A DNA stretch of 64,000 bases, taken from the NCBI RefSeq assembly GCF_900258515.1, contig NZ_LT984884.1, positions 2,052,744 through 2,116,743 on the forward strand. Reading direction: 5' to 3'. Below, one piece after another: positions 8,541-25,616 of this stretch. This DNA comes from Lentibacillus sp. Marseille-P4043. Its GTDB lineage: Bacteria; Bacillota; Bacilli; Bacillales; Amphibacillaceae. Position numbers and translations under genes: made by a program. Below the pieces are notes generated by a model. The model worked only from the letters and a program-made list of their open reading frames with translations. It did no database searches and was not told the origin of the DNA. Within the stretch, counting starts at the first letter, position 1. Every line of letters begins with the position of its first letter.

Positions 8541-9206
8541 ATGGAAAAACACGTTGTTGTTATATATCCGCATCCAGATGATGAATCATTTGGTGCAGCA
8601 GGAACAATTGCGGAATTTCGTGAACAGGGTGTGCCTGTTACATACCTATGTGGAACATTAGGTGAAATGGGGCGCAATATGGGAAAACCCACATTTGCCA
8701 ATCGCGAAACATTACCGGAAATTCGCAAAGAAGAGTTAATAAACGCATGTAAAGCACTTGATGTAGAATTAAAAATGCTTGGCTATCGTGATAAAACAAT
8801 CGAATTTGAAGATCGTCAGGAAGTTGCTGAACATTTAAAAGGTATTTTAGAAGAAATTGAACCAAGTCTTGTAATCACCCATTATCCTGGATATGCAGTA
8901 CACCCCGATCATAATGCTTTAGGTGCAGCTGCTATTGAAGCGGTGTGGCAGATGGATGAGAATAAGCGTCCAACTGTATGGGCACAAGCAATTTCAAATA
9001 ATTCCGCTGAAGAATTAGGTAAGCCTGATGTAAAAAATGATGTTATGGGTGCTTTTGATAAAAAGCTAGCAGCTATATCTGCGCATAAATCACAGGCTTT
9101 CGGCATTATGGACCAGTTTAAAGAAAGTCAGGAAGATGACGCGGCAGTTAGTGAAGGCGCAAAAAAGGTACTTGGTAAAGAACAATTTTATATATGGAAA
9201 TTCTAG
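8541..9206 (+). CDS. bshB2: bacillithiol biosynthesis deacetylase BshB2
   Basis: This 221-residue PIG-L/LmbE-family zinc deacetylase removes the acetyl group from GlcNAc-malate during bacillithiol synthesis, the main low-molecular-weight thiol of Bacillaceae. The zinc and catalytic motif PHPDDESFGAAG lies at about residues 11-22, and the third metal His is in the HPDHNALGAAA segment. BshB2 is the paralogue that backs up BshB1. It is translationally linked to yojF and followed by a terminator at 9225. Mycothiol-conjugate-amidase-like activity on bacillithiol adducts is a possible alternative. Confidence 0.9.
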   Translation: MEKHVVVIYPHPDDESFGAAGTIAEFREQGVPVTYLCGTLGEMGRNMGKPTFANRETLPEIRKEELINACKALDVELKMLGYRDKTIEFEDRQEVAEHLKGILEEIEPSLVITHYPGYAVHPDHNALGAAAIEAVWQMDENKRPTVWAQAISNNSAEELGKPDVKNDVMGAFDKKLAAISAHKSQAFGIMDQFKESQEDDAAVSEGAKKVLGKEQFYIWKF

Positions 9207-9224
9207 GATCAGATCCCGGAAGAT

Positions 9225-9261
9225 AATAGGTTGCCGATTATGGTAACCTATTATACTTTTT
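9225..9261 (+). terminator. intrinsic terminator after bshB2
   Basis: The stem AATAGGTTGCC/GGTAACCTATT (one G-T pair) is followed by a T-rich run. Confidence 0.8.
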
Positions 9262-9344
9262 ATAGGCTGTTTCTAAAAGAATGTTGTTTTATCACAATAG
9301 ATATATAATGCGACGTAACTAAAAAATTGCTTTCCCACCGTTCC

Positions 9345-9531
9345 GGAAATACACTACGCTTTCCGCGGGCGGCTGCTGAGCCTCCTCGTGCTAGGTGCTC
9401 GCCCGAGTTGCAAGCAATTTCGGTGAAGTAGCGCTCCTCGCAACTCGAGGCTTATTCGGTGGGAGTATTGCTCGTCGCACTGCGGGGTCTCACCTAGGCC
9501 TCTCTTCCCGCAGGAGTCTCCGTGTATTTCC
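9345..9531. repeat. GC-rich palindromic module 1 inside E1
   Basis: The outer arms GGAAATACAC (9345-9354) and GTGTATTTCC (9522-9531) are perfect. The inner landmarks CTTTCCGCGGG on the left and CCCGCAGGAGTC on the right are those of an interspersed repeat also present at 25168-25278. Confidence 0.65.
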
Positions 9532-9606
9532 TCCACTTATATTGTATTTACTACCAGTAACTGTAGGTGTATGTGTTCTATCAAGTCACATCCTACCACT
9601 TTACTA

Positions 9607-9823
9607 GTCCGGGTGAGTGGAGGGTGGTGACTCCTGCGGGAACAATGGTTTTCGGTGGGGCGAGTTAGCGCAGCCCCAGCACGAGCTGAAGACCCCGCAG
9701 AGTGGTTTGAAAAGGAGGGTCGACTAAAACCGTCCTTTGCGGACAACGTCGACATACCCCTCGCCGGGGCAAGGAGGCTGAGGCCGTGCCCGCGGAAAGC
9801 ATCCACCCGGAGCGATCCCGGAC
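9607..9823. repeat. GC-rich palindromic module 2 inside E1
   Basis: The outer arms are GTCCGGG (9607-9613) and CCCGGAC (9817-9823). The left arm carries ACTCCTGCGGGAA and CTGAAGACCCCGC. The right arm carries GAGGCTGAGGCC and GTGCCCGCGGAAAGC. It is the same family as the modules at 25168 and 25381. Confidence 0.6.
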
Positions 9824-10001
9824 GGCGGCAAATACGCGTGCTTATAGAAAAGAGCCCAGCAGTTACGACGCATTTTCTATCAACTACGACAGTAAAAACA
9901 ACAAGCATTGCAAAAAAGTCAACAAAAAATCGCAGGCATTATACCTGCGAAGCATAAGATGGGTCTCAGTGAAATTTCCCCGGTTTCATATCAGTAGTTA
10001 G

Positions 10002-10358
10002 CTACCGCGTTGCATCTTTAACGAGTTGGTTTAGTAATAGATTTAAAATCGATATTACTACCGCCGCAATAATGGCAGTTCCAAAACCGTTAATAACAAA
10101 GGATGAGCCCATCACTCCTTGTGTGATCATTAGTGTAATCGCATTAATCACAAATAAAAATAAACCAAGTGATATAACTGTAATTGGTAATGTAAAAATA
10201 ATTAAAATTGGCTTAACAATGACATTCAAGATGGACAAGATGAAACTGGCCAGCAAGGCTGCACCAAATTCCTCTAAATGAAAGGAATCAAACAACTGTG
10301 CTACCGCAATCAATGCAACCGCATTTAGGAATACGGACAAAAACCAGCGTAGGAACAT
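10002..10358 (-). CDS. yvlD: YvlD-like four-helix membrane protein (phage holin IV superfamily)
   Basis: This is a 118-residue integral membrane protein with about four hydrophobic segments (FLNAVALIAVAQL, ALLASFILSILNVIV, PITVISLGLFLFVINAI, GTAIIAAVVISILNLLL). It matches the DUF360 / phage-holin-IV-like family, to which YvlD of B. subtilis belongs. Its start overlaps the yvlC stop by one base (TAATG), so translation is coupled. In B. subtilis yvlABCD is cell-envelope-stress induced and lies beside hprK, the same order as here, although yvlA and yvlB are missing. The function is unknown. Confidence 0.8.
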   Translation of the reverse strand: MFLRWFLSVFLNAVALIAVAQLFDSFHLEEFGAALLASFILSILNVIVKPILIIFTLPITVISLGLFLFVINAITLMITQGVMGSSFVINGFGTAIIAAVVISILNLLLNQLVKDATR

Positions 10359-10555
10359 TAATGCACCTCACCCTCATTTGGAATAATAATTGTTGCTACA
10401 AGGTAAATTAATGACAACGTAAATACACTTGAGATTAAAGCGATAATGAATACAAGTCTTACAATCGTAGCATCTATATTAAAGTATTCGGCAATTCCTC
10501 CTAATACTCCCGCAATTTTACGATCCATAATTGATCTGGTTAATCGTTTAGGCAT
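10358..10555 (-). CDS. yvlC: PspC domain membrane protein YvlC
   Basis: This 65-residue protein is essentially one PspC domain. The N-terminal part RSIMDRKIAGVLGGIAEYFNID shows the typical GVxxGxAxYF signature, and a single transmembrane helix follows (VFIIALISSVFTLSLIYLVATIIIP). PspC-type proteins belong to the phage-shock/envelope-stress response. It is the first gene of a two-gene operon with yvlD. A GGAGG-type site is visible upstream on the minus strand (AAAGGAGGCGAAAT). The pair is bracketed by elements E1 and E2. Confidence 0.85.
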   Translation of the reverse strand: MPKRLTRSIMDRKIAGVLGGIAEYFNIDATIVRLVFIIALISSVFTLSLIYLVATIIIPNEGEVH

Positions 10556-10687
10556 ATATTTCGCCTCCTTTTATTAGGACTTTCCTTTTTCTTATAGCTG
10601 ATAAACATCCTAATTAAATATACGATTACCTGTTGCAAAAAGTTTCATTTACAAATGGCATGTATATTTTTACTAGTCTTTACGTAA

Positions 10688-11065
10688 TGTTTGTTTATTT
10701 AATTTCGTAGTTGATAGAAACTGCGACACAGTGACAATTAATTTTTGTGATGCTTCCTCTCACTCTGACGTGGGTTGAGTGGTTGAACCCGAGCGCTAGA
10801 ACATCAACCCGAAACGAGGAAACATCGACCCAAGAACGAGAACATCAACCCGAAACGAGGAAACATCGACCCAAGAACGAGAACATCAACCCGAAACGAG
10901 GAAACATCGACCCAGGAACGAGAACATCAACCCGAAACGCAGAGCATCAACCCGAAACGCGAAAACATCGACCAGGAAACGAGAACATCAACCCGATCAA
11001 GATTCCGGCGGGTGAGCAACTTCTTACTTACGTCGCATTTTATATCTATTGTGTAAAAGGCAACA
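10688..11065. mobile_element. element E2: A/B terminal sequences around a tandem array
   Basis: The left end is B type (10688-10733: TGTTTGTTTATTTAATTT, then CGTAGTTGATAGAAACTGCG). The right end, read inward from 11065, is A type (TGTTGCCTTTTACACAATAG, then ATATAAAATGCGACGTAAG). The ends match those of E1 and E3, but the interior is a 20/21-bp tandem array rather than palindromes. E2 is inverted relative to E1, so the two copies bracket yvlDC with their B ends facing inward. No gene is visible; an open frame crossing it is a by-product of the repeat. Confidence 0.6.
10800..10998 (+). repeat. 20/21-bp tandem array (10 units), AACATC core
   Basis: The units begin AACATC at 10800, 10821, 10841, 10862, 10882, 10903, 10923, 10943 (AGCATC), 10964 and 10984. 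Two unit types alternate over most of the array: AACATCAACCCGAAACGAGG (plus A) and AACATCGACCCAAGAACGAG, giving a 41-bp higher-order period. There are no spacers, so it is not CRISPR. The core AACATCRRCNCGARA also defines the array at 46651. Confidence 0.9.
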
Positions 11066-11190
11066 GTCATTTAGGAAAAAGACCTTTTGTTTATCCAAGA
11101 ATTCATCGTAGTGTTTCTCTATACTTCATACCATAAAAATGTGCTACAATGAAAAGCAGTTATTGTGTGTCTGACTGGAGGTACCATTAT

Positions 11191-12126
11191 ATGGAAAAAG
11201 TACGTACAAAAGATTTACTGGCAAATTTTAATTTGACACTTGTTGCGGGGGAAGATGGGATACATAGAGAAATTACGACAAGTGATATCTCCCGTCCAGG
11301 AATTGAAATGACGGGGTATTTTAAGTATTATCCAAAAGAACGCTTACAACTTATTGGAAAAACAGAGATGGCTTATTTTTTAGATTTGACAGATGAACAG
11401 AAGAGAGATCGGGTTGAAAAGCTGTGTACAGACATTACACCAGGAATTGTCGTAAGCAGGGGGATGGATATCCCGGAAGTATTAATTGATGCAGCCAATG
11501 AATCTGGTGTACCTATTTTACATTCACCACGAAAAACTACACGCGTGATTAGCAGGTTAACCAACTATCTTGAAGCAAAATTCGCTCCATTTACAGCTAT
11601 TCATGGTGTGCTTGTAGATATTTATGGTGTAGGGGTACTGATAACAGGGCAAAGTGGTGTTGGTAAAAGTGAAACTGCACTTGAACTGGTAAAACGCGGT
11701 CATCGCCTGGTAGCGGACGATAGTGTAGAAATTCGCCAAGAAGATTATGATAGTTTGATTGGCAATGCACCAGACTTAATTGAACATTTGCTGGAAATTC
11801 GTGGTTTGGGAATCATTAATGTTATGACACTATTTGGCGCAGGTGCAGTACGCAGTTACAAAAAAATCTCATTAATCATTAATTTAGAATTATGGGATGA
11901 AAAAAAACAATATGATCGGCTTGGGTTGGACGAGGAAACAATGAAAATCATGGATGTGAAACTTCCAAAAGCGACTGTTCCTGTTCGTCCAGGAAGAAAT
12001 CTTGCTGTTATTATTGAAGTTGCAGCAATGAACTTTCGCTTAAAACGAATGGGTGTTAATGCAGCAGAAGAGTTTTCCGAGAGGTTAACAACCATGATTG
12101 ATCAGGAAAAAGATGGCATGGAATAG
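11191..12126 (+). CDS. hprK: HPr kinase/phosphorylase
   Basis: HprK, 311 residues, phosphorylates Ser46 of HPr and Crh with ATP when glycolytic intermediates are high, and removes the phosphate with Pi. It is the sensor of CcpA-dependent carbon catabolite repression. Walker A GQSGVGKS lies at residues 153-160, and the HprK signature [12 protein letters not shown] lies in the C-terminal catalytic half. The start ATG 11191 follows GGAGG; an upstream ATG at 11149 lacks a site. Its substrate Crh is encoded at 24738. It is first in a run with lgt, yvoD, ppaX and yvoF, as in B. subtilis. Confidence 0.97.
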
Positions 12127-12137
12127 GAGTGATTTTA

Positions 12138-12974
12138 GTGACTTGTAGTGCACCTACACTGGATCGTGTATTTTTAGAAATAGGTCCATTAACCATTTAC
12201 TGGTATGGGGTTATTATTGCATTTGGTGCCTTTTTAGGATTATATTTAGCAACTAGGGAGTCAGATCGACTTGGGCTAAAAAAAGATTTAGTCGTGGATC
12301 TAGTTGTATTTGCGATCCCTATTGCGATTATATGTGCCCGCATCTATTATGTGATTTTTGAATGGGAACAATATGAAGGTGGAACATGGTGGGATGTTTT
12401 TGCCATTTGGAATGGCGGTATCGCTATTCATGGTGCTTTAATTGGTGCGGTGTTAACCGCGATCGTATTCACCCGAGTGAGGAAAGTTTCGTTTTGGCAG
12501 TTGGCGGATGTTATCGCACCGAGTATTATTCTAGGGCAGGCAATTGGTCGCTGGGGTAATTTTATGAACCAGGAGGCACATGGTGGTGCAATTTCAGAAG
12601 CTACATATAATAGTTTCCACCAATATTTACCTGATTTTATTATGAATCAGATGTGTATTGATGGAATCATGTATCACCCAACATTTTTATATGAATCATT
12701 TTGGGATATTCTTGTGTTTATCTTCTTGTTGTTTTTACGCAGATTCAATCCAGTTCGTGGTGAAGTGTTCTTAAGTTACGCGATGACGTACTCTGTTGGT
12801 CGTTTCTTTATCGAAGGAATGCGTACCGATAGCTTAGTATCTGGAGGACTTCGCGCCGCACAAGTGATTTCTATTGTCATCATTGTAGTTGGTATTGCAC
12901 TAATTATCTATCGCCGGAAGTCTGGGATGGCTAAGTACCGTTACGATGGTACAAAAGTGAAACCGAAGAAGTGA
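12138..12974 (+). CDS. lgt: prolipoprotein diacylglyceryl transferase
   Basis: Lgt, 278 residues, is a polytopic membrane enzyme that transfers diacylglycerol from phosphatidylglycerol to the lipobox cysteine of prolipoproteins. The Lgt signature [13 protein letters not shown] is present, with the essential arginine and asparagine region, along with seven or so hydrophobic helices and the early [10 protein letters not shown] motif. I chose GTG 12138 because AGGAG (12125-12129) lies eight bases upstream. The gene begins 12 bp after hprK. It would process the lipoproteins encoded at 31417 and 55120 in this window. Confidence 0.96.
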
Positions 12975-13004
12975 ACAATTTTCTAATAAAGGGGGAATGA
13001 TGCA

Positions 13005-13964
13005 TTGGCTGGCATTTTTTATCGGGGTCTTCGTCAAGGGGCACATGTTACCTTTACATTGGGAAAAGTCATCTTTCCAATTACCTTGATTGTAACAATT
13101 CTACAATATACATCGATACTACCATGGATTATTAAGCAGCTAAGTCCTGTTATGGGTTTTATCGGCCTTCCTGGTGAAGCAGCAGTACCATTAGTGCTGG
13201 GAAACTCACTGAATTTATATGCGGGAATTGCGGCAATTGTATCATTCGATTTCTCTATCAAAGAAGTATTTATCTTAGCAGTTATGCTGTCGTTTTCACA
13301 TAATTTATTTATTGAATCGACAGTTGCTGCTAAAGTGGGGGTCAGTGGCTGGCTGATATCCGGTATTCGAATTGTTCTCGCCTTAATTGCTGCAGTTATT
13401 ATAAATTTACTATGGTCTGGCGGTGCTGAACCTGCGCAATATGGCTTTATTTCACCATCTGAACAAGTTCTAGATGGCTGGTTTGAAATCATTAGTCAAG
13501 GTGTCCAGACAGCAATTGTTGCAGTAGCACAATTAGCATTAATTGTTATACCACTCATGATCGTTATGCAGTTTTTGCGAGAAAAAGGCTTTTTAACCAA
13601 ATTATCGAATGGCTTGGCTCCATTCACTAAATTGCTTGGTATGGAAAAAAACACGTCCATGACACTTGTAGCAGGTTTAACAATTGGATTAGCCTATGGC
13701 GCAGGGTTAATGATCCAAGCGGTGAAAGAAGACGGTGTTTCGAAAAGAGATATGTACTTGGCTTTGATTTTTTTAGTATCTTGTCATGCTGTTGTGGAAG
13801 ACACCGTCATATTTATTCCACTGGGGATACCAGTTTGGCCATTGCTTGTAATTCGACTAATAACAGCAATACTACTAACAATCACGATTGCTTTTTTATG
13901 GAAACGACCAGAATTTTACCAAAGGAAGGGAACATCACATGAGCATTCATACAATACTTTTTGA
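13005..13964 (+). CDS. yvoD: YvoD-like nucleoside-recognition/gate domain membrane protein
   Basis: This 319-residue polytopic membrane protein has two gate-domain halves. Each contains a long hydrophobic bundle with LGNSLNLYAG or LTIGLAYGAG motifs typical of the nucleoside recognition / Gate family (SpmA/SpmB-like). The start is TTG 13005 with GGGGGA eight bases ahead. The hprK-lgt-yvoD-ppaX-yvoF order identifies it as YvoD, whose transport role is unproven. It overlaps ppaX by 26 bp. Confidence 0.85.
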   Translation: MAGIFYRGLRQGAHVTFTLGKVIFPITLIVTILQYTSILPWIIKQLSPVMGFIGLPGEAAVPLVLGNSLNLYAGIAAIVSFDFSIKEVFILAVMLSFSHNLFIESTVAAKVGVSGWLISGIRIVLALIAAVIINLLWSGGAEPAQYGFISPSEQVLDGWFEIISQGVQTAIVAVAQLALIVIPLMIVMQFLREKGFLTKLSNGLAPFTKLLGMEKNTSMTLVAGLTIGLAYGAGLMIQAVKEDGVSKRDMYLALIFLVSCHAVVEDTVIFIPLGIPVWPLLVIRLITAILLTITIAFLWKRPEFYQRKGTSHEHSYNTF

Positions 13965-14574
13965 TCTTGATGGAACATTGATTGATACGAATGAATTAAT
14001 AATTGCTTCTTTTAAGCATACGTTTGATCATTATGGAAAAAACTTCACACGGGAAAAAGCGATTGAATTTATTGGACCGCCGTTAAAAGAATCGTTCGAA
14101 ACCGTTGATCCATCACAAGCCGATACAATGGTGGAAACATATCGTCAGCACAATTTAGAGCATCATGATGAATATGTCACTGCTTTCCCTTTTGTTATCG
14201 AAACACTGGAACATTTAAGGGAGCAAGGCATTCAACTTGGTGTTGTGACGACAAAAATGTGGGATACAGTTGATAAAGGATTGAAGTTGACTGGTATGGA
14301 TCCCTTTTTTGAGACGGTTATAACACTTGATGATGTCACACATGCCAAACCTCATCCAGAGCCAATTATCAAAGCAATGCATGATCTGAATGCAAAAGCA
14401 GAATCAACGTTAATGGTCGGAGATAATTCACATGATATTGAAGCAGGACAGAACGCTGGGGTTCAAACAGCTGGTGTTGCTTGGTCATTAAAGGGAAAAG
14501 AGATGTTAGAAGCATATCACCCAACCTACATGTTGAACGATATTAGGGATCTATTTTCGATTTTAGGGGTGTGA
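13939..14574 (+). CDS. ppaX: pyrophosphatase PpaX (HAD superfamily)
   Basis: PpaX, 211 residues, is a HAD-family hydrolase. It hydrolyses the pyrophosphate released when HprK dephosphorylates P-Ser-HPr, which explains its conserved linkage to hprK. Motif I is FDLDGTLIDT (nucleophile Asp, acid/base Asp). Motif II is the TTKMWD region. Motif III/IV is KPHPEP followed by MVGDNSHDIEAG. ATG 13939 with AAGGAAGGG upstream is preferred to an in-frame ATG 17 codons earlier that lies well inside yvoD. Confidence 0.93.
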   Translation: MSIHTILFDLDGTLIDTNELIIASFKHTFDHYGKNFTREKAIEFIGPPLKESFETVDPSQADTMVETYRQHNLEHHDEYVTAFPFVIETLEHLREQGIQLGVVTTKMWDTVDKGLKLTGMDPFFETVITLDDVTHAKPHPEPIIKAMHDLNAKAESTLMVGDNSHDIEAGQNAGVQTAGVAWSLKGKEMLEAYHPTYMLNDIRDLFSILGV

Positions 14575-14577
14575 CCA

Positions 14578-15099
14578 ATGCGTAACACGAACCGATATCA
14601 GGTGAACAAAGCCAATTCATTGTGGCAGATTTACCAGACTGTTTCTTTCTGGAAGGTAATGAAAAACTTCATTGTGATTCAACTTGCACGATACACCCCT
14701 TTCTTGGCAATGAAAAATTGGCTGTATCGGACGTTTTTACGCATGGGAGTTGGCGGACAAACCGCTTTTGCCTTAATGGTTATGCCAGACGTGATGTTTC
14801 CTGAAAAAATAACGGTTGGAAGCAACAGTATTATTGGCTATAATACAACGATATTAGCACACGAATATTTGATTAAGGAATATCGAATTGGTAAGGTCGT
14901 AATTGGCGATGAGGTTATGATTGGAGCAAACTCAACAATTCTACCAGGTGTTACGATTGGTGATCGGGCAATTGTCTCTGCTGGAACACTTGTCCATAAA
15001 GATGTACCAGCTGGAGCATTCGTTGGCGGGAATCCAATGCGTTTGATTTATACGAAGGAAGAAATGGAAAAGCGGATGCAGGGAGATGCTGACGCGTGA
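14578..15099 (+). CDS. yvoF: acyltransferase with left-handed beta-helix (YvoF)
   Basis: This 173-residue protein has hexapeptide repeats forming a left-handed beta helix (VGSNSIIGYNTTILAHEYL, IGDEVMIGANSTILPGVTIGDRAIVSAGTLV), as in O-acetyltransferases using acetyl-CoA. It corresponds to YvoF, the last gene of the hprK cluster, starting three bases after ppaX. The acceptor is unknown. A long symmetrical terminator follows at 15119. Confidence 0.88.
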   Translation: MRNTNRYQVNKANSLWQIYQTVSFWKVMKNFIVIQLARYTPFLAMKNWLYRTFLRMGVGGQTAFALMVMPDVMFPEKITVGSNSIIGYNTTILAHEYLIKEYRIGKVVIGDEVMIGANSTILPGVTIGDRAIVSAGTLVHKDVPAGAFVGGNPMRLIYTKEEMEKRMQGDADA

Positions 15100-15118
15100 T
15101 CGTATTATTATAAATGAT

Positions 15119-15162
15119 AAAATTCTATTCCAATGTCATACTAACATTGGAATAGAATTTTC
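15119..15162 (+). terminator. terminator of the hprK-yvoF operon
   Basis: A 17-bp perfect stem (AAAATTCTATTCCAATG and its complement, nine-base loop) ends in TTTT. Confidence 0.85.
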
Positions 15163-15207
15163 TGCGTTATAATACAGGTAATAAGCAGGAAATGAAACGG
15201 ACATTAA

Positions 15208-16740
<1,533 letters not shown>

Positions 16741-16746
16741 AATCCT

Positions 16747-16774
16747 TTGCGAAAATCAAAAGATGTGATATGAT
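16747..16774 (+). promoter_or_regulatory. glpD promoter
   Basis: TTGCGA (16747-16752) and TATGAT (16769-16774) are separated by 16 bp, with a TG dinucleotide before the -10. Confidence 0.65.
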
Positions 16775-16809
16775 ACAAATAAGTTAATACATGGGACGGA
16801 GAAATGGAG

Positions 16810-16866
16810 AAACCACAAATCACAAATGGTGAAAAAACATTTGTGTATTTTGTGGTTTTTTTGTGT
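16810..16866 (+). terminator. GlpP-type leader terminator/antiterminator of glpD
   Basis: A long hairpin (arms AAACCACAAA..CACAAATG and CATTTGTG..TTTTGTGGTTT) ends in seven T residues. It lies between the promoter and glpD. In B. subtilis the protein GlpP plus glycerol-3-phosphate prevents termination at an equivalent inverted repeat in the glpD leader. The position and shape match, while GlpP control here is inference. Confidence 0.8.
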
Positions 16867-16993
16867 GCGATCCGGACCTAAATATGGCAAATTTTAACAT
16901 ACAATTTAAAAGAAATTCCAGTTAGAATACATGAATTTCCTAATAAGCGGGTAATGATATCTTGAGAGTGGAATTTTAGGGGAGTGATGGAAA

Positions 16994-18655
16994 ATGACGA
17001 ATTTTTCTAGTTTTAAACGTAATGATATTTTTAAAAAATTAACCGAAGAGCCACTAGATGTATTTGTAATTGGTGGTGGCATAACCGGTTCTGGAATAGC
17101 ATTAGATGCTGTAACACGTGGCTTATCAACAGGTGTTATTGAAATGCAAGACTTTGCAGCAGGTACTTCCAGCCGCTCAACAAAACTTGTTCATGGTGGA
17201 TTACGCTATTTACAACAATTTGAAGTGAAAATGGTTGCTGAAGTCGGAAAAGAGCGAGCAATTGTTTATGAAAATGGTCCACATGTAACAACACCAGAAT
17301 GGATGATGTTACCATTTCATAAAGGTGGTTCGTTTGGTCCATTTACGACGAATATCGGCTTACGGGTATATGATTTCCTTGCTGGCGTTAAAAAAGGGGA
17401 ACGCCGAAAAATGTTAAGTCCCGAAGAAGCATTGCAAAAAGAACCACTTATTAAAAAAGAGGAATTAAAAGGTGCTGGCTATTATGTAGAGTATAAAACA
17501 GATGATGCCAGATTAACTATTGAAGTAATGAAAAAAGCAGTTCAAAAAGGTGCTCATGCAGTTAACTATGCAAAAGCCACTGATTTTATTTATGGCGAGT
17601 CCGGAAAAATAGTTGGTGTAGTAGTTAGTGATCAGCTTACAGGTGAAACGTATAACGTGTATGCGAAGAAAATCGTTAATGCTTGTGGTCCTTGGGTTGA
17701 TGATCTACGCGAAATCGATGGTTCTAAACAAGGAAAATCGTTGCATCTAACGAAAGGTGTGCATTTGGTATTTCCTAAAAAACGATTCCCATTACAACAA
17801 GCGATCTATTTCGATGCCCCTGATGGCCGGATGATTTTTGCTATCCCACGAGATAATAAGACATATGTAGGAACAACCGATACGAGCTATGAAGGTAATA
17901 TTGCACATCCGACATTGACAGAAGCAGATCGAGATTATTTAATTGATGCGATTAATTATATGTTTCCTTCCCTTGAAATGAAAGCAGAAGATATTGAATC
18001 GAGTTGGGCAGGATTACGCCCGTTAATTGCTGAGGATGGAAAAAATCCTGATGAAATCTCCCGTAAGGATGAAATTTTCATTTCCGACTCTGGCTTGATT
18101 TCGATGGCTGGCGGTAAATTAACAGGGTACCGTAAAATGGCTGAACAGGCAGTGAATACAGTCGTTAACCAATTAAAAGACGAAGAAGGAATTTTATATT
18201 CTAAATCAGAGACCCTTAATTTACCTATTTCGGGTGGCGAAGTTGGTGGATCAACGGGATACAAACGTTTCAAGGATCGCAAGGTTAAAGAGGCTGTTGC
18301 TTTAGGAATGGATGAAGAAACAGCGCAAATGCTAGTTAAGAAATACGGGTCAAACATCGATACTATTTTTGAACTCTATCAGGCAAAACAAGAAGAAGCG
18401 AAGAAAGCAGCTATCGATCCAATAGTTTTTGCTCAGCTTATTTATGCATTAGAGTACGAATTAACCTATAAACCAGTTGACTTCTTTATTCGTCGTACAG
18501 GTGCACTTTTCTTTGACATTAATTGGGTTCGTACCCATAAGGATAATGTCATTGCCTACATGGCGAAAGCATTACAGTGGAGTGAAAAACAAACAAAAAC
18601 CTATCAAAATCAGTTAGATGAATTACTTCATGAAGCAGTGACCCCAGTTAAATGA
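16994..18655 (+). CDS. glpD: aerobic glycerol-3-phosphate dehydrogenase
   Basis: GlpD, 553 residues, is a membrane-associated FAD enzyme that oxidises glycerol-3-phosphate to dihydroxyacetone phosphate and passes electrons to menaquinone. The N-terminal Rossmann FAD site is VFVIGGGITGSGIALDA. STKLVHGGLRYL is the second family signature, and a C-terminal GlpD cap domain is present. It is controlled by the leader hairpin at 16810. Its product enters glycolysis through TpiA (41143). A terminator follows at 18663. Confidence 0.97.
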   Translation: MTNFSSFKRNDIFKKLTEEPLDVFVIGGGITGSGIALDAVTRGLSTGVIEMQDFAAGTSSRSTKLVHGGLRYLQQFEVKMVAEVGKERAIVYENGPHVTTPEWMMLPFHKGGSFGPFTTNIGLRVYDFLAGVKKGERRKMLSPEEALQKEPLIKKEELKGAGYYVEYKTDDARLTIEVMKKAVQKGAHAVNYAKATDFIYGESGKIVGVVVSDQLTGETYNVYAKKIVNACGPWVDDLREIDGSKQGKSLHLTKGVHLVFPKKRFPLQQAIYFDAPDGRMIFAIPRDNKTYVGTTDTSYEGNIAHPTLTEADRDYLIDAINYMFPSLEMKAEDIESSWAGLRPLIAEDGKNPDEISRKDEIFISDSGLISMAGGKLTGYRKMAEQAVNTVVNQLKDEEGILYSKSETLNLPISGGEVGGSTGYKRFKDRKVKEAVALGMDEETAQMLVKKYGSNIDTIFELYQAKQEEAKKAAIDPIVFAQLIYALEYELTYKPVDFFIRRTGALFFDINWVRTHKDNVIAYMAKALQWSEKQTKTYQNQLDELLHEAVTPVK

Positions 18656-18662
18656 TGTTAGT

Positions 18663-18698
18663 AAAACTTCTATCTTATATAAAAGGTAGAAGTTTTTC
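18663..18698 (+). terminator. terminator of glpD
   Basis: The stem AAAACTTCTA/TAGAAGTTTTT has a short AT-rich loop. Confidence 0.8.
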
Positions 18699-18863
18699 AT
18701 TTTGTTCTAAAAAAGCACCCCCTTTCCATTAGTAAATATGATATACTTTGTTCTAGTTTAAATACGCAATTAGGCCTGCTGACGTTACTGTTCAATGGAT
18801 TCAGTTATGTCAGCTTTAGTGCTTGTTTGTATTATGTATGTAAGAAGAAGCAGGGGGATAAGT

Positions 18864-19868
18864 GTGCAACATTTAGAGAATAATATCGTAAAGAGTAAAC
18901 AAAATAATGTTCTCCCTTTTATTCCTGAAGGTGATTTTTATTTTACAAAAGGTGTGGAAGCCTTCCGCAAAAGAAAATTTGATATTGCTTTGAAGTGGTT
19001 AAGAAAAGCAATTGAACAAAAGCCAAATGATCCGTTGTACCAATGTCAAATGTCTATTATTTATACGGAAATTGGTGCTTATCATGCCGCAAATCAATTG
19101 TTAACCAAAGTATTGCAATCAACTGATGACCAGTATATGGATTGTTACTATTTATTAGCAAATAATTATGCACATTTAGGATTACTGAATGATGCAAAAA
19201 AATACGCGGAATCATATCTTACTAATGAACCTGAAGGCGATTTTAGTGAAGAAGCTAAAAGTTTGCTACATTTAATTGATATAGATGAAGACGATGAAGA
19301 TGACTGGGATCTGGAAGAAGAGGATGAACTTCTAATTTATCAAGAAACGGTTTTTTATCATATGGAAAATAAAGAATGGGACAAAGCAATGCCAATCATC
19401 GAGGAGATGCTTACGTTATTTCCTGAACACAAACAGGCAACCCATGATTATGCACAGGCATTGTTTTATACCGGTTTTCCGGAAAAAGCAATTCAAGTGG
19501 AACTTGACATATTGCAAGACGAACCCGATTCATTAGTTAGTCATGCGAATTTGGCAGTTTTTTATTATGAGTTTGATCAAAAGGCAGAATATGAAAAACA
19601 TATTCAGTCATTGCAAAATGTATATCCAATTCAAGAACAGCAAAAATTACGAATAGCGGTTACACTTGCTAGAACAGGAATGTATCATGAAGCAGTCCCA
19701 CGATTTCGCGCACTTGCTAAGCGTGTAGTAAAAAATCATCCTTCTTATTATCGGTGGTTCAGCATTGCCAATTACTATGAAGGAGAACAGGCAAAAGCAA
19801 TGTCATTATGGAGAGAAGGCTGTCGACAACATTCGGTGCTTTCCAATGAAAAAGAACCGTGGTTATAA
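18864..19868 (+). CDS. yvcD: TPR-repeat protein (YvcD-like)
   Basis: This soluble protein of 334 residues is built of tetratricopeptide helices (for example FRKRKFDIALKWLRKAIEQK, YLLANNYAHLGLLNDAKKYA, and NEKEWDKAM-type repeats). They are interrupted at about residues 145-160 by a very acidic stretch (DEDDEDDWDLEEEDE). It corresponds by sequence type and position to YvcD, which precedes trxB in B. subtilis. No enzymatic motif is present, so it is presumably a protein-protein scaffold. GTG 18864 with GGGGGATA upstream is chosen over an ATG at 18795 lacking a site. Confidence 0.8.
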   Translation: MQHLENNIVKSKQNNVLPFIPEGDFYFTKGVEAFRKRKFDIALKWLRKAIEQKPNDPLYQCQMSIIYTEIGAYHAANQLLTKVLQSTDDQYMDCYYLLANNYAHLGLLNDAKKYAESYLTNEPEGDFSEEAKSLLHLIDIDEDDEDDWDLEEEDELLIYQETVFYHMENKEWDKAMPIIEEMLTLFPEHKQATHDYAQALFYTGFPEKAIQVELDILQDEPDSLVSHANLAVFYYEFDQKAEYEKHIQSLQNVYPIQEQQKLRIAVTLARTGMYHEAVPRFRALAKRVVKNHPSYYRWFSIANYYEGEQAKAMSLWREGCRQHSVLSNEKEPWL

Positions 19869-19951
19869 AGATTTGAGCAGAAAAATAGACGAAACGAACT
19901 GATTCTTATACGATTAAGTTGGCTGAACTATAATAGAGAAAAAGGGGCTGA

Positions 19952-20911
<960 letters not shown>

Positions 20912-20968
20912 AACAAACAAGTAATTGCATTTTAACGCTGTTGTAACATGCTCGAAACAATTTTGGGG

Positions 20969-21050
20969 TATAATATAATTAACTAATTGACCCCCTTTTA
21001 ATAGATAAATTAGTTTTTTACAGAGGCGCTAGTCGTCTCTGTCTTTTTTT
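20969..21050 (+). terminator. tandem hairpins after trxB; possible short RNA
   Basis: TATAAT (20969-20974) is followed by a stem AACTAATT/AATTAGTT (20981-21015) with six T residues. A second stem, ACAGAGGCG/CGTCTCTGT (21020-21042), ends in seven T residues. This could simply be a double terminator for trxB. The TATAAT placed just before the first hairpin also allows a short, roughly 70-nt independent transcript, although no -35 is seen. Confidence 0.6.
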
Positions 21051-21099
21051 ATGTTTGTCCAATTCTGTCGAGGCGAAATTACTCCTTCCAATCATATCC

Positions 21100-21129
21100 T
21101 TGTTGCTAAGGAAAAATTCATTGTATAAT
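21100..21129 (+). promoter_or_regulatory. probable promoter of the yvcI-rapZ-mgfK-whiA operon
   Basis: TTGTTG (21100-21105) and TATAAT (21124-21129) are separated by 18 bp, 41 bp before the yvcI start. Confidence 0.5.
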
Positions 21130-21170
21130 GGAGATAATGTTTTTTAATAAATTAATGAGGTGCAATGCAT

Positions 21171-21635
21171 ATGCAACGCGTGACAAACTGCATATTAATC
21201 AATAACAAAAAAGTATTAGTAATAAAAAAACCTCGACGTGGATGGTATGCGATTCCTGGCGGGAAAATGGAACAAGGTGAATCCATCAAGGAATCAGCAA
21301 CAAGAGAATTTTACGAAGAAACAGCTTTAACGTTGATCAATCCGAATTTAGCTGGTGTCTTTACCTTTAGTGTTTTTGAAAACAAGGCTATTACAGAGGA
21401 GTGGATGATGTTCACCTTTGTTTCCCGTTATTTTAATGGTGAGTTAACGAAACATTGTAAAGAGGGAGAATTGGAATGGGTTTCTCTTGATCGTGTGAAT
21501 GAATTACCAATGGCTGAAGGGGATCATCATATTTTCAACCATGTCTTAGCATCAAGCGAAACGTTATATGGGTCGTTTGCGTATACAAAAGATTACGAGC
21601 TGCTTGATTTACGCCTTGATCCAGCCACACCATAA
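21171..21635 (+). CDS. yvcI: Nudix hydrolase (YvcI-like)
   Basis: This 154-residue Nudix enzyme hydrolyses a nucleoside diphosphate linked to another moiety. The Nudix box is clear: GGKMEQGES...REFYEETAL, with the metal-binding REFYEE core. The usual glycine after EExG is alanine here. It is related to the MutT/8-oxo-dGTPase-like YvcI. The start at 21171 leaves eight bases after GAGGTG, whereas the ATG at 21165 would be too close. It is first in the conserved yvcI-rapZ-mgfK-whiA-crh cluster. The substrate is unknown. Confidence 0.85.
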
Positions 21636-21648
21636 GGAGGAGACTCGA

Positions 21649-22539
21649 GTGAACAATATAGATAAGGAAACAAGATTAGTTATTATTACCGGTATGTCTG
21701 GTGCCGGTAAAACGGTGGCTGTGCAAAGCTTTGAGGATCTTGGTTATTATTGTGTTGATAACTTGCCTCCAGCATTGCTGCCAAAGTTTTTAGAGTTAAT
21801 GAAGGATGCAACAAACAGTATTCAACGTGTTGCATTAGTGATGGATTTACGTGGTCGTGAATTCTTTGATTCATTAGTTGAAGCATTGGATATTTTAGGT
21901 GACGAGGATTGGCTCCAGGAACATATTCTCTTCCTTGATGCGAAAGATGAGTCATTAGTTACTCGGTATAAGGAAACGCGTCGTTCACATCCGTTAGCAG
22001 TCGGTGGATTACCACTAAATGGTATTAAACAGGAACGGAAAATATTAGACGAATTAAAAGGAAGAGCACAACGCGTGGTCGATACAACAAATTTAAAACC
22101 ACGGGAATTACGCGAAAAAATTCTCCATGCCTATTCAGAGGAAAAACAAGAGATTTTTTCTGTTCATATGGTTTCGTTTGGGTTTAAGTACGGGGTGCCA
22201 ATTGATGCTGATTTAGTCTTTGATGTGCGATTTTTACCAAATCCGCATTATGTTTCGCATTTACAGCCATTAACAGGACTGAATCAGGAAGTTTCATCAT
22301 ATGTATTTAAATGGTCAGACACACAAAAATTCAATGAAAAAGTACTCGATTTACTCCAATTTATGCTGCCGCAATACAAGAAAGAGGGCAAGTCACAGCT
22401 TGTTGTTGCAATTGGTTGTACAGGTGGCCAGCATCGATCTGTTGCTATCACCGAATACTTTGCGAAGAGATTATCTTCTGGCTATATTACTCATATTACC
22501 CATCGAGATATTGATAAAGGAAAGGGTCATCACTTATGA
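21649..22539 (+). CDS. rapZ: RNase adapter RapZ / nucleotide-binding protein YvcJ
   Basis: RapZ/YvcJ, 296 residues, has an N-terminal P-loop GMSGAGKT followed by a conserved C-terminal domain with [10 protein letters not shown]. In E. coli RapZ guides RNase E to the GlmZ sRNA. In B. subtilis YvcJ binds and hydrolyses GTP and affects competence. GTG 21649 has a perfect AAGGAGG site. The stop overlaps the mgfK start (ATGA). Confidence 0.93.
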
Positions 22540-23495
22540 GTAACAGAAAACAACCCAATGTAGTCGTTATCGGTGGTGGAACAGGGATGCCGGTCCTTTT
22601 GCGAGGTCTAAAGGATCTGCCAATAAATTTGACTGCACTAGTTACAGTTGCAGATGACGGTGGTAGTACGGGCAGGTTGCGTTCGGAAATGGCAATTCCA
22701 GCCCCGGGAGATATTCGAAATGTGATTGCCGCTTTATCTGATGCAGAGCCAATGCTACTTGATTTATTTCAGCACCGTTTTGCTAATGGTAATGGTTTAT
22801 CTGGTCATTCAATGGGCAATTTGTTACTAGCGGCTATGACTTCTCTTACCGGGGATTTTTATACCGGAATTAAAGAAATTTGCCGTGTACTTAATGTGAA
22901 AGGAAATATTTACCCAATATCAAATGAAAGTATGTCGTTGCATGCCGAAATGGATGATGGGTCAATTGTATCTGGTGAATCATCTATTCCATTAGCACAT
23001 AAAAAAATTAAACACGTATTTTTAGAACCACAGCCAGTTAAACCATTGCCTAATGCTGTCAAGGCCATTGAACAGGCTGATTTGGTCGTCATTTCACCGG
23101 GGAGTTTGTATACAAGTATCATGCCAAACCTTATTATCCCACAAATAGATGTTGCGCTTCGTAAGGCAAAAGGAAATGTAGTCTACGTTTGCAATGTCAT
23201 GACACAAGCAGGGGAAACAACAGGATATACTGCAAGTGACCATGTGCGAGCAATACATGATCATATTGGTGAGAGCTGTGTGGATTCGATTGTTGTACAC
23301 AATGAGCCGATTAGCGAAACTGTCCGTGAGATCTATGCAGAAGAAAATGCTGATCCCGTCGTTTATGATACGGATCAGTTACTTGCTATGAATTTGCAGA
23401 TTATTGAGGGGGATATTATTGATCATTCCCAAGCAACACTTCGTCATGATACAAATAAAATTGCTGCCTTACTATACTCAATCATCGATCAATAG
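22536..23495 (+). CDS. mgfK: gluconeogenesis factor YvcK/MgfK
   Basis: This 319-residue member of the CofD-like YvcK family has the N-terminal [18 protein letters not shown] nucleotide-binding loop. It also has the conserved [14 protein letters not shown] and APGDIRN segments. YvcK binds UDP-GlcNAc in B. subtilis and is needed for growth on gluconeogenic carbon sources and for correct PBP1 localisation. It is translationally coupled to rapZ and followed by whiA after 34 bp. Confidence 0.92.
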
Positions 23496-23529
23496 GTTTC
23501 AATAATTGGTAGGCAGGAGGTGAATTAAT

Positions 23530-24477
23530 TTGTCGTTTGCATCTGAAATAAAAAAAGAATTAACAGCAATGGAAGTAGATGACTGCTGTACGACTGCTGA
23601 ACTAGCTGCCTTAATCCGCATGAACGGTGCCATCTCGTTATCTAAACAAGATTATACACTTGACGTACAAACAGAAAATGCAGCTATTGCACGTCGTATC
23701 TATACGCTGATCAAATCATCTTATTCGTTTCCTGTTGAATTACTTGTTCGGAAAAAAATGAAGTTGAAAAAAAACAATATCTATATCGTCAGGATGAAAG
23801 AAGATGTTCAGGAACTATTATCGGATCTTGATATCCTAAGGGAGCCATATACATTTGTTCGCACGATCTCAAACCAGTTTCTTGAAAAGTCTTGCTGTAA
23901 GAAATCTTATTTACGTGGGGCTTTTTTAGCAGGTGGGTCGATTAATAATCCGGAAACATCATCCTATCATTTAGAGATTTATAATTTTTATCAAGAGCAT
24001 AATGATGCATTATGTGAATTGCTGAATAGTTTTGATCTAAAAGCGCGTAAGTTGGAACGCAAAAAAGGCTATATTGCGTATATCAAAGAGGCTGAAAAGA
24101 TTACAGAATTTCTTAATATAATTGGTGCACATAACGCATTATTTAAATTTGAGGATGTACGAATTGTTCGCGATATGCGGAATTCGGTCAACCGCTTAGT
24201 AAACTGTGAAACAGCTAACTTAAATAAAACAATTGGAGCAGCATTTCGGCAGATTGAAAATATTAATCTGATCGAGAAAGCGGTTGGTTTGGAAGTTTTA
24301 CCAGAAAAGCTACGGGAAATAGCAGTTTTGCGTGTTCAACATCAGGATGTTTCGTTAAAAGAACTTGGGGAACTGGTATCAAGTGGAAAGATATCAAAAT
24401 CTGGTGTCAATCACCGGTTGAAAAAGATTGATGAGTACGCTGAGAAAATTAGGAGCGGTGATTTAATCGAAAACTGA
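23530..24477 (+). CDS. whiA: sporulation/division regulator WhiA
   Basis: WhiA, 315 residues, has an N-terminal degenerate LAGLIDADG homing-endonuclease-like domain ([16 protein letters not shown]) and a C-terminal helix-turn-helix ([23 protein letters not shown] region). In Streptomyces it controls sporulation genes. In Bacillus it binds the nucleoid and affects division and chromosome segregation. The start is TTG 23530 after GGAGGTG. It belongs to the rapZ-mgfK-whiA operon. Confidence 0.95.
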
Positions 24478-24572
24478 ATAAGTATTCGTTTTAATTCGTT
24501 TTCATGGTATAATTGTTGATAATTTATCCCGCCCTAATAAGCAGTATTTTCAAATGAATGAGTTCTTCTTGC

Positions 24573-24637
24573 ATGGTGTTCAAGTCCGTAATGTTCTACA
24601 TTTTTAAAAAGTAGAAAACAACGGACATGAACATCTT
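24573..24637. repeat. long imperfect hairpin between whiA and crh
   Basis: The left arm contains GTTCAAGTCCG (24578-24588) and GTTCTAC. The right arm contains GTAGAAAAC and CGGACATGAAC (24622-24632). The arms are about 25-30 bp with a TTTTTAAAAA centre. There is no T run after it. It may be a short interspersed palindrome or an RNA processing/leader structure for crh. Confidence 0.6.
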
Positions 24638-24737
24638 GATTTACAATATCAGTATGAACTGATGGTGTTTTACTTAATTGTTTCGCTTTTCAAGAGATAT
24701 AATGACAGCGTTTACAACATTGGAGAGGATGATCAGA

Positions 24738-24998
24738 GTGGTTGAGCGATCAGTGACAGTTGAACTTGAAACAGGGTTACAGGCAAGACCTGCAGCAAGG
24801 TTTGTACAGGAAGCAAATCGTTACGGATCACATTTATTTTTAGAAAAGGATGGCAAGCGAATTAATGCAAAAAGTATTATGGGACTAATGAGTTTAGCGA
24901 TCGGAACCGGGGAAACGATTACGTTAATTGGTGATGGTATTGATGAAGATGATGCGATTACACATTTGGTTTCATTTGTTACAGAAAAGAGGATTTGA
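24738..24998 (+). CDS. crh: HPr-like catabolite repression protein Crh
   Basis: Crh, 86 residues, is an HPr paralogue. The position of the PTS phospho-His15 is Gln15 (TGLQARPAA), so it cannot carry PTS phosphate. The regulatory Ser46 (INAKSIMGLM) is kept, so HprK (11191) can phosphorylate it and P-Ser-Crh can act as CcpA corepressor. GTG 24738 with GGAGAGG nine bases ahead gives the exact length of B. subtilis Crh; longer open frames upstream are not used. It follows whiA, as in Bacillus. Confidence 0.94.
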   Translation: MVERSVTVELETGLQARPAARFVQEANRYGSHLFLEKDGKRINAKSIMGLMSLAIGTGETITLIGDGIDEDDAITHLVSFVTEKRI

Positions 24999-25167
24999 TC
25001 TATCCGTGAACGAATCCAAAAATATCAATTGCTTTTCCTTAAATTAGGCTCTTTTCTTAATGTTAGATGTTTTAAATTTCGTAGTTGATACAAAATGCGA
25101 CGTAGTGAATAATCACTTATAATACGCTTTTTCTTCCTCTAATGAGTAAGTGGCCGGATTCGCTCCG

Positions 25168-25278
25168 TCAGAATACTTCGCTTTCCGCGGGCACGGCCTC
25201 AGCCTCCTCGGAAGCAAAGAACGCTTCCTCCGGGGTCTTCGGACACGTGCTGTTCCCGCAGGAGTCTACGTATTCTGA
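25168..25278. repeat. GC-rich palindromic module 1 inside E3
   Basis: The outer arms are TCAGAATAC/GTATTCTGA and the inner arms CGGAAGC/GCTTCCTCCGG around an AAAGAAC loop. The left landmark is CTTTCCGCGGGCACGGCC. The right landmark is TTCCCGCAGGAGTCTACG. These are typical of a repeat family interspersed in Bacillaceae genomes. Confidence 0.7.
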
Positions 25279-25380
25279 CTACGCTGATATAGATCTTTGA
25301 TTGGAGAGTAGTGTGTGACCTATAAATTCAACATTTCATGAAGTTCTTCTCACTTATACTTATATAGAAATTTACACTAA

Positions 25381-25503
25381 GGCTTGGGAAAAATGCGAGA
25401 CTCCTATGGGAAAAGGAACAGTCTGAAGACCCCACAGCGAGCGTTCTTTGCGAGCGAGGAGGCTGAAGCGTTCCCCATGGAAAGCGAGTATTTTTCCCAA
25501 GCC
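25381..25503. repeat. GC-rich palindromic module 2 inside E3
   Basis: The 14-bp outer arms GGCTTGGGAAAAAT/ATTTTTCCCAAGCC are perfect. Inside are GACTCCTATGGGAA and GTCTGAAGACCCCACAG on the left, and GAGGAGGCTGAAGCG and CATGGAAAGCGAG on the right. Confidence 0.7.
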
Positions 25504-25616
25504 GCCGGGTTAGCACTTACCTTATAAAGGACGTCAAGAAAACACACTAAAAATTACTTCGCATTTTATGGATATTGTGTAAAAACAACAATCTTTGAGA
25601 AAACGGCGTTAATAAT

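Follow-up and report, generated by a model that had tools for sequence, protein, structure and literature searches.

What a set of non-coding elements that share their ends and differ in what lies between them actually represents, and what has moved them, is the question raised by a 64,000-nucleotide stretch of the genome of Lentibacillus sp. Marseille-P4043 (G000:C1:2052744-2116743, hereafter the window, in a genome of approximately 3.92-3.93 Mb). Three such elements lie in the window, each bounded by an A end and a B end that are inverted relative to each other, an arrangement proposed by an initial annotation and confirmed by comparison of the end sequences: E1 (9265..9920, plus strand, strand being given as the A-to-B direction; A left, B right, 656 bp), E2 (10674..11084, minus strand; B left, A right, 411 bp) and E3 (25047..25608, minus strand; B left, A right, 562 bp). 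They are very probably members of a large family of miniature inverted-repeat transposable elements (MITEs) that an IS1595-family transposase moved in trans and that is now orphaned and has had its interiors exchanged and inverted. The termini, the 8-bp target duplications seen at family level, the paired asymmetric ends, a partner insertion sequence (IS) found elsewhere, the absence of a transposase match in the own genome and the exchange and inversion of interior modules can all be read directly from the sequence, and mobilisation in trans is what we infer from them.

The extent of the elements follows from alignment of the 100 bases outward from the ends. TGTT had been taken as the terminus, a placement that was rejected once the flanks were lined up: conservation runs past TGTT as far as GGCT, and the true termini, which resemble GGCTGTTTTCTAAAAGATTG for A and GGCTCTTTTCGTAATGTTTG for B, lie 14-21 bp further out. 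An A end has the structure GGCTGTTTTCTAAAAGATTGTTGTTTTTTACACAATA-core and a B end the structure GGCTCTTTTCGTAATGTTTGTTGCTTTTTAATTTCGTAGTT-core, and the common inner core that had been recognised at the outset is the 18-bp GATATAAAATGCGACGTA. The A end of E1 (9265..9317, plus strand) extends from the outer IS1595-type terminus, GGCTGTTTC..., through to the left core (GATATATAATGCGACGTA, 9300..9317, plus strand), and its B end occupies 9864..9920 on the minus strand, with the core at 9864-9881. In E2 the B end is at 10674..10730 (plus strand, core 10713-10730) and the A end at 11029..11084 (minus strand, core 11029-11046); in E3 the corresponding positions are 25047..25104 (plus strand, core 25087-25104) and 25555..25608 (minus strand).

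These ends are abundant and regularly paired. With up to three mismatches allowed across the whole genome, a 25-nt A pattern has 53 matches and a 26-nt B pattern 40, and the reversed patterns used as controls have none. The short-pattern matches form 23 inward-facing A/B pairs no more than 1.5 kb apart, where 2000 random draws give a mean of 0.41 and a maximum of 4; two further A-B neighbours from the same search do not face inward. A profile search (E<=1) of own-genome stretches totalling 396,811 bases returned 207 ends, which make up at least 87 inward A/B pairs and leave 33 ends outside such pairs, and all element counts are lower bounds because the covered stretches, picked around matches, amount to roughly 397 kb out of 3.92 Mb. 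The single A/A pair, to be set against 87 A/B pairs, accounts for two of the 33, and the A/B elements span 97-849 bp with a median of 554 bp. The ends are thus neither mostly unpaired nor spaced at random, two of the outcomes that the initial annotation had named as telling against a mobile shell. At 19628-19660 of the window, on the minus strand, there is also a weak lone B-end match (9.4 bits, E 0.33) that is probably due to chance.

Target duplications were counted over 91 A/B pairs from the own genome and named relatives, 54 of them usable. In these 54 the 8 bases to the left of A and to the right of B agree at 0.606, compared with 0.423 for re-paired flanks (standard deviation 0.020, maximum 0.479 of 500); agreement peaks at a length of 8 and zero shift, with shifted, shorter and longer comparisons all lower, and 11 of the pairs retain a perfect 8/8 flank duplication. 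It is at the level of the family, and from better-preserved siblings, that the 8-bp duplication expected of an IS1595-driven MITE is found. Comparison with empty sites, a check that had been proposed for these elements, finds E3 absent from the same site in both congeners compared, where the anchors that stand 689 and 635 bp apart here are separated by 133 bp (G001) and 81 bp (G002), the site being about 555 bp shorter in each.

Transposases of the matching kind are found in other genomes. Among 61 genomes searched with an IS1595 transposase protein, the own genome included, 20 contain matches, and the own genome has none, nor does it have a PF12762 match at E<=0.001. The autonomous copy that had been sought, with a transposase between such ends, occurs in other genera: two outer ends stand 1880 bp apart in G021 (L250) and 1466 bp apart in G035 (L251), both copies are flanked by 8/8 duplications (ATAATTAA, TTAATGAA), and each encloses an intact transposase matching NF033547 IS1595 (E 3.4e-63 and 9.3e-62), PF12762 and PF12760. 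IS1595 elements have GG ends, and L250 and L251 combine such ends with 8-bp duplications and an IS1595 DDE domain with zinc finger; intact relatives that have unlike ends of the same kind as A and B, with perfect 8-bp duplications, are thereby present in two other genera. Five transposase copies are near full length; the three at 67% identity or more (G035, G021, G041) have both ends, the G041 copy with a 7/8 duplication judged by eye, and the two at 40-44% identity have neither. Half of the fetched transposase loci (15 of 30) show at least one end-like match, and the congener G002 retains decayed transposase copies with an end. When the outer 28 bases of A and B are compared with the IS ends, A matches the far end at 26 (G035) and 27 (G021) of 28 positions and the near end at 23, and B has GTTGATATAA in common with the transposase-side ends of the G035 and G021 copies; the asymmetry of A and B is best read, short of proof, as that of two unlike IS ends. 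The family therefore has termini matching an IS1595 element, many copies (87 A/B pairs) with no transposase gene inside, and an autonomous partner with the same ends in other genera, that partner lacking the 18-bp core. Because intact relatives with like ends encode an IS1595 transposase and none is matched here, the elements are best read as IS1595-moved, orphaned MITEs. The earlier proposal of a mobilisable shell served by a trans-acting recombinase, as opposed to one decaying transposon, gains support from at least 87 paired copies, the 8-bp duplications, the empty E3 site and the IS1595 relatives.

Several observations weigh against this interpretation. E1-E3 themselves show no clear duplication (2, 4 and 4 of 8 bases, by eye), 37 of the 91 pairs were left out when duplications were counted, owing to poor alignment of their outer ends, and divergence of the intergenic sequence keeps the empty E3 site from being placed to the exact base. 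The outer 28 bases of B barely separate the IS ends (23 near versus 21-22), and in the G041 copy, which is without GTTGATATAA, the two IS ends cannot be told apart by A (22 at the far end and 23 at the near end) or by B (23 at each). Finally, the 18-bp core is missing from the end sequences examined in G035, G021 and G041, all three of them relatives of full length, and for this reason the exact parent IS was not found.

A mechanism consistent with these findings can be outlined. An IS1595-family transposase would act in trans on the A/B shells, with A as the counterpart of the IS end that lies farther from the transposase gene and B, with less certainty, as that of the end next to the gene; if A and B are two such unlike ends, each copy would carry one of each. 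Transposition would copy 8 bp of A+T-rich target, with roughly one third of the copies coming to lie against an intrinsic terminator's T-tail. Because no IS1595 source is left in the own genome, the copies appear orphaned, with target duplications in decay. The interiors belong to a shared set of modules, comprising GC-rich palindromes, short stretches and a captured minisatellite, which copies have exchanged and inverted, with joins at the short core, and which are also present in an IS4-type shell.

The initial annotation was correct in placing GC-rich palindromes in E1 and E3 and a 20/21-bp array in E2, and mistaken in regarding the interiors as unrelated, as they form a recurrent, invertible repertoire. 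The palindrome-bearing interior of E1 (9318..9863, plus strand) has near-full-length copies elsewhere in the genome, one of them within an IS4-type shell; that of E3 (25105..25554, plus strand) has 90-nt palindromic arms that are 77% complementary; and there are other elements to which both interiors match in part, for example at approximately 384,500-384,970 and 863,380-863,990 of the genome. Across the genome, 89 segments match the E1 interior. In one element, whose shell runs the opposite way (B left, A right), the interior lies on the same strand as that of E1 and aligns with it at 83% over 546 columns, and the outers of these two elements agree better crosswise (73%, 73%) than side by side (59%, 51%). 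Clustering of 40-nt inner flanks (edit distance <=12, single linkage, which can chain) took in the 82 of 87 elements with an interior of at least 80 nt and gave 12 clusters with three or more members, in 42 ordered module combinations. Eleven of the 12 are found next to A in some elements and next to B in others.

Some of the E1-interior matches lie inside a second kind of shell, represented by 14 pairs of ends of the CTCAACTTTCGCA type. Their flanks agree at 0.684 at 7 bp, 0.512 at 6 and 0.312 at 8, which points to target duplications of about 7 bp (14 pairs, no shuffle control). The shell at 3738174-3738983 contains the E1 interior at 88% over query positions 1-546. An IS4 transposase is found between ends of this type in the congener G001, where the L335 protein matches NF049925 (IS4; E 8.2e-184) and the copy has both CTCAACTTTCGCA ends with TTATTTA on each side (L359). 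A relative in the own genome (L358, 344-1957) is 1614 bp long, with a 424-aa open reading frame (ORF) and TTATATAA on each side, and is 43% identical to the L335 protein over 454 columns, a relation established by alignment, the ORF being outside the family-library scan. This apparently intact IS4-type copy may be able to move the second shell.

Modules start directly after the core, and this suggests an alternative in which the shell is still of IS1595 type and the interiors are true cassettes, with GATATAAAATGCGACGTA serving as the site at which a dedicated recombinase inverts and exchanges them within and between IS1595- and IS4-type shells. Such a scheme would account for the occurrence of 11 of the 12 clusters at both A and B, for the 11 unordered combinations seen in both orders, for a whole interior inverted relative to its shell with the cores intact, and for the same interiors inside IS4-type shells. 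The junctions, however, are not one fixed site: a second core, GAAGGATTATGTGCAATA, accompanies 3 A and 5 B outers, where the main core is seen with 48 A and 46 B, and in the second, IS4-type shell the C end joins at a shortened core. Many related copies also allow ordinary recombination, and no recombinase is known for the core, no search for one having been made. We regard the scheme as unlikely; were the core a working exchange site, one non-coding cargo would gain two independent ways to spread (IS1595 and IS4). For orphaned MITEs moved by IS1595, the likeliest route of interior exchange would be recombination among copies together with nested insertion. A variant A end carries an insert that is also found inside IS4-type ends, likely a trace of nesting between the two shells.

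The tandem array of E2 (10787..11000, plus strand) is part of a 20-nt minisatellite present at 40 loci, of which 10 are in A/B shells, 17 are outside them and 13 are only partly covered; five of the 17 have one recognised end (one of these weak) and 12 have none. We read this minisatellite as a captured repeat, separate from the shell. Its consensus is AACATCGGCCCGAGCGCAGA, with 42 copies at L025:1412-2266, and at the 12 of 27 fully covered loci that have no shell end nearby the flanks inspected show no obvious common sequence.

It is very improbable that the conservation of the ends reflects parts of promoters, terminators or structured RNAs and not transposon ends; the initial annotation had itself raised promoter or terminator parts as a possibility. 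The palindromic interiors would suit this explanation, as would the GTTGATATAA stretch that B keeps in common with transposase-side IS ends, where by our own reading a promoter would lie. Rfam at gathering score, however, gives only tRNA and tmRNA, and a promoter and terminator scan confined to 9200-11150, E3 being outside the scanned stretch, found no excess over shuffled sequence, with 5 promoter-like sites versus 4.0 (standard deviation 2.1) and 2 terminator-like sites versus 1.8 (standard deviation 1.3). Inverted pairing and 8-bp duplications are left unexplained by such parts, and the element-free E3 site argues against them. An ISL3-type element, suggested as the mover by the termini and the 8-bp duplications (ISL3 elements have GG ends and 8-bp duplications, the B end resembles an ISL3 terminus, and ISL3 transposases occur in 29 of the 61 genomes), is barely credible, since the own genome has no ISL3 match, none of 30 fetched ISL3 loci (L190-L219, taken with flanks of up to 1.5 kb) has an ISL3 transposase between convincing A and B termini, with L197 showing a single A end that points away and L205 giving, on either side, weak matches of 5-9 bits to the inner part, and the transposase that does lie between matching ends is IS1595.

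Mobile insertion cassettes carry passenger genes, as in MIC231 with genes between IS231 ends, and E1-E3, which contain only short, apparently spurious ORFs, are not of that kind. The shared, invertible interiors set the A/B family apart, by description, from known kinds of element. Target duplications of 8 bp are usual among IS1595 members, and GG ends are described for the related Merlin elements (PMC8101967); a 165-bp MITE of Haloquadratum walsbyi, with 7 copies, an inverted repeat of 25 and a direct repeat of 8, is tied to ISHwa6 (IS1595; PMC3852290). The A/B elements resemble that MITE, as described there, in being short, without transposase, and equipped with IS1595-type ends and 8-bp duplications, and differ from it in their span (97-849 bp), their number (at least 87 copies), their conserved inner core and their exchangeable, invertible interior. 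Pneumococcal BOX is modular with variable-copy parts, and for RUP movement in trans via IS630-Spn1 has been hypothesised (PMC3049150); the likeness lies in interspersed repeats, in a modular interior for BOX and in hypothesised movement by a resident IS for RUP. The A/B family differs in having ends that match those of an IS1595 element with perfect duplications, interiors that invert, and a set of interiors common to two unrelated shells. TIMEs are described as non-autonomous, derived from Tn3 and subject to mosaic formation, and mobile insertion cassettes as likewise transposase-dependent (PMC4133298, PMC6542083). The A/B shells share with both a dependence on the transposase of another element, and with TIMEs their mosaicism; they differ in being non-coding and in having IS1595-type or IS4-type ends. 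The open-licence literature searched yielded no description of an IS1595-driven A/B MITE family, and a term search of the main text of PMC10969869 found no mention of IS1595 or Bacillus. What is new here is the mosaicism, with interiors present in either orientation and within the ends of a second, unrelated mobile element; the A/B family is unusual because the same interior pieces recur in these ways. It offers a natural case of one non-coding cargo common to two transposon shells, and the gain and exchange of interiors by bacterial MITEs can therefore be tested through comparison of strains.

The family also connects intergenic repeats that are widespread in Bacillaceae-type genomes, and in other families of the order, with one family of transposases. 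The core with at most one mismatch is present in 11 of the 61 genomes, the own one included, and a combined outer-end pattern (<=3 mismatches) in 29, with none for the reversed control. Among 52 stretches with an exact core in named genomes, 50 are from Aquibacillus, Oceanobacillus, Salinibacillus or Virgibacillus; the other two are in Clostridia-type metagenome-assembled genomes (a Clostridiales and a Christensenellaceae assembly; L112, L131), where the end search gives an 18-nt match only, and are treated as chance. In other families of the order, L242, L248 and L286 are elements of 181-209 bp with the same outer ends and related GC-rich interiors, which match 34, 61 and 37 of the 87 own-genome interiors, respectively. 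Nine of 12 foreign interiors tested match the own genome, and three do not (L241, L247, L227). In the G021 IS1595 copy, L250:792-1193 (plus strand) encodes a 133-aa ORF, membrane-like by eye and without Pfam or NCBIfam match, that is possibly a passenger gene.

Terminator-like hairpins are frequent at the borders of the elements. In 28 of the 87 A/B elements such a hairpin points at the element and has a T-tail that stops no more than 20 nt from an end, and by successive 20-nt bins the flanks with such a hairpin number 29 (of 158 flanks), then 11, 7, 2 and 1. A stricter terminator scan retains 10 of 86 elements (11 of 172 flanks), compared with 1 of 486 shifted windows. These counts suggest insertion into terminator tails, but hairpins that point away are also concentrated around the elements, and the scan carries no control for terminator clustering in intergenic DNA. 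At E1 the terminator scan places one such hairpin beside each end, both outside the element, at 9223..9254 (plus strand) adjoining the A end and at 9930..9950 (minus strand) adjoining the B end.

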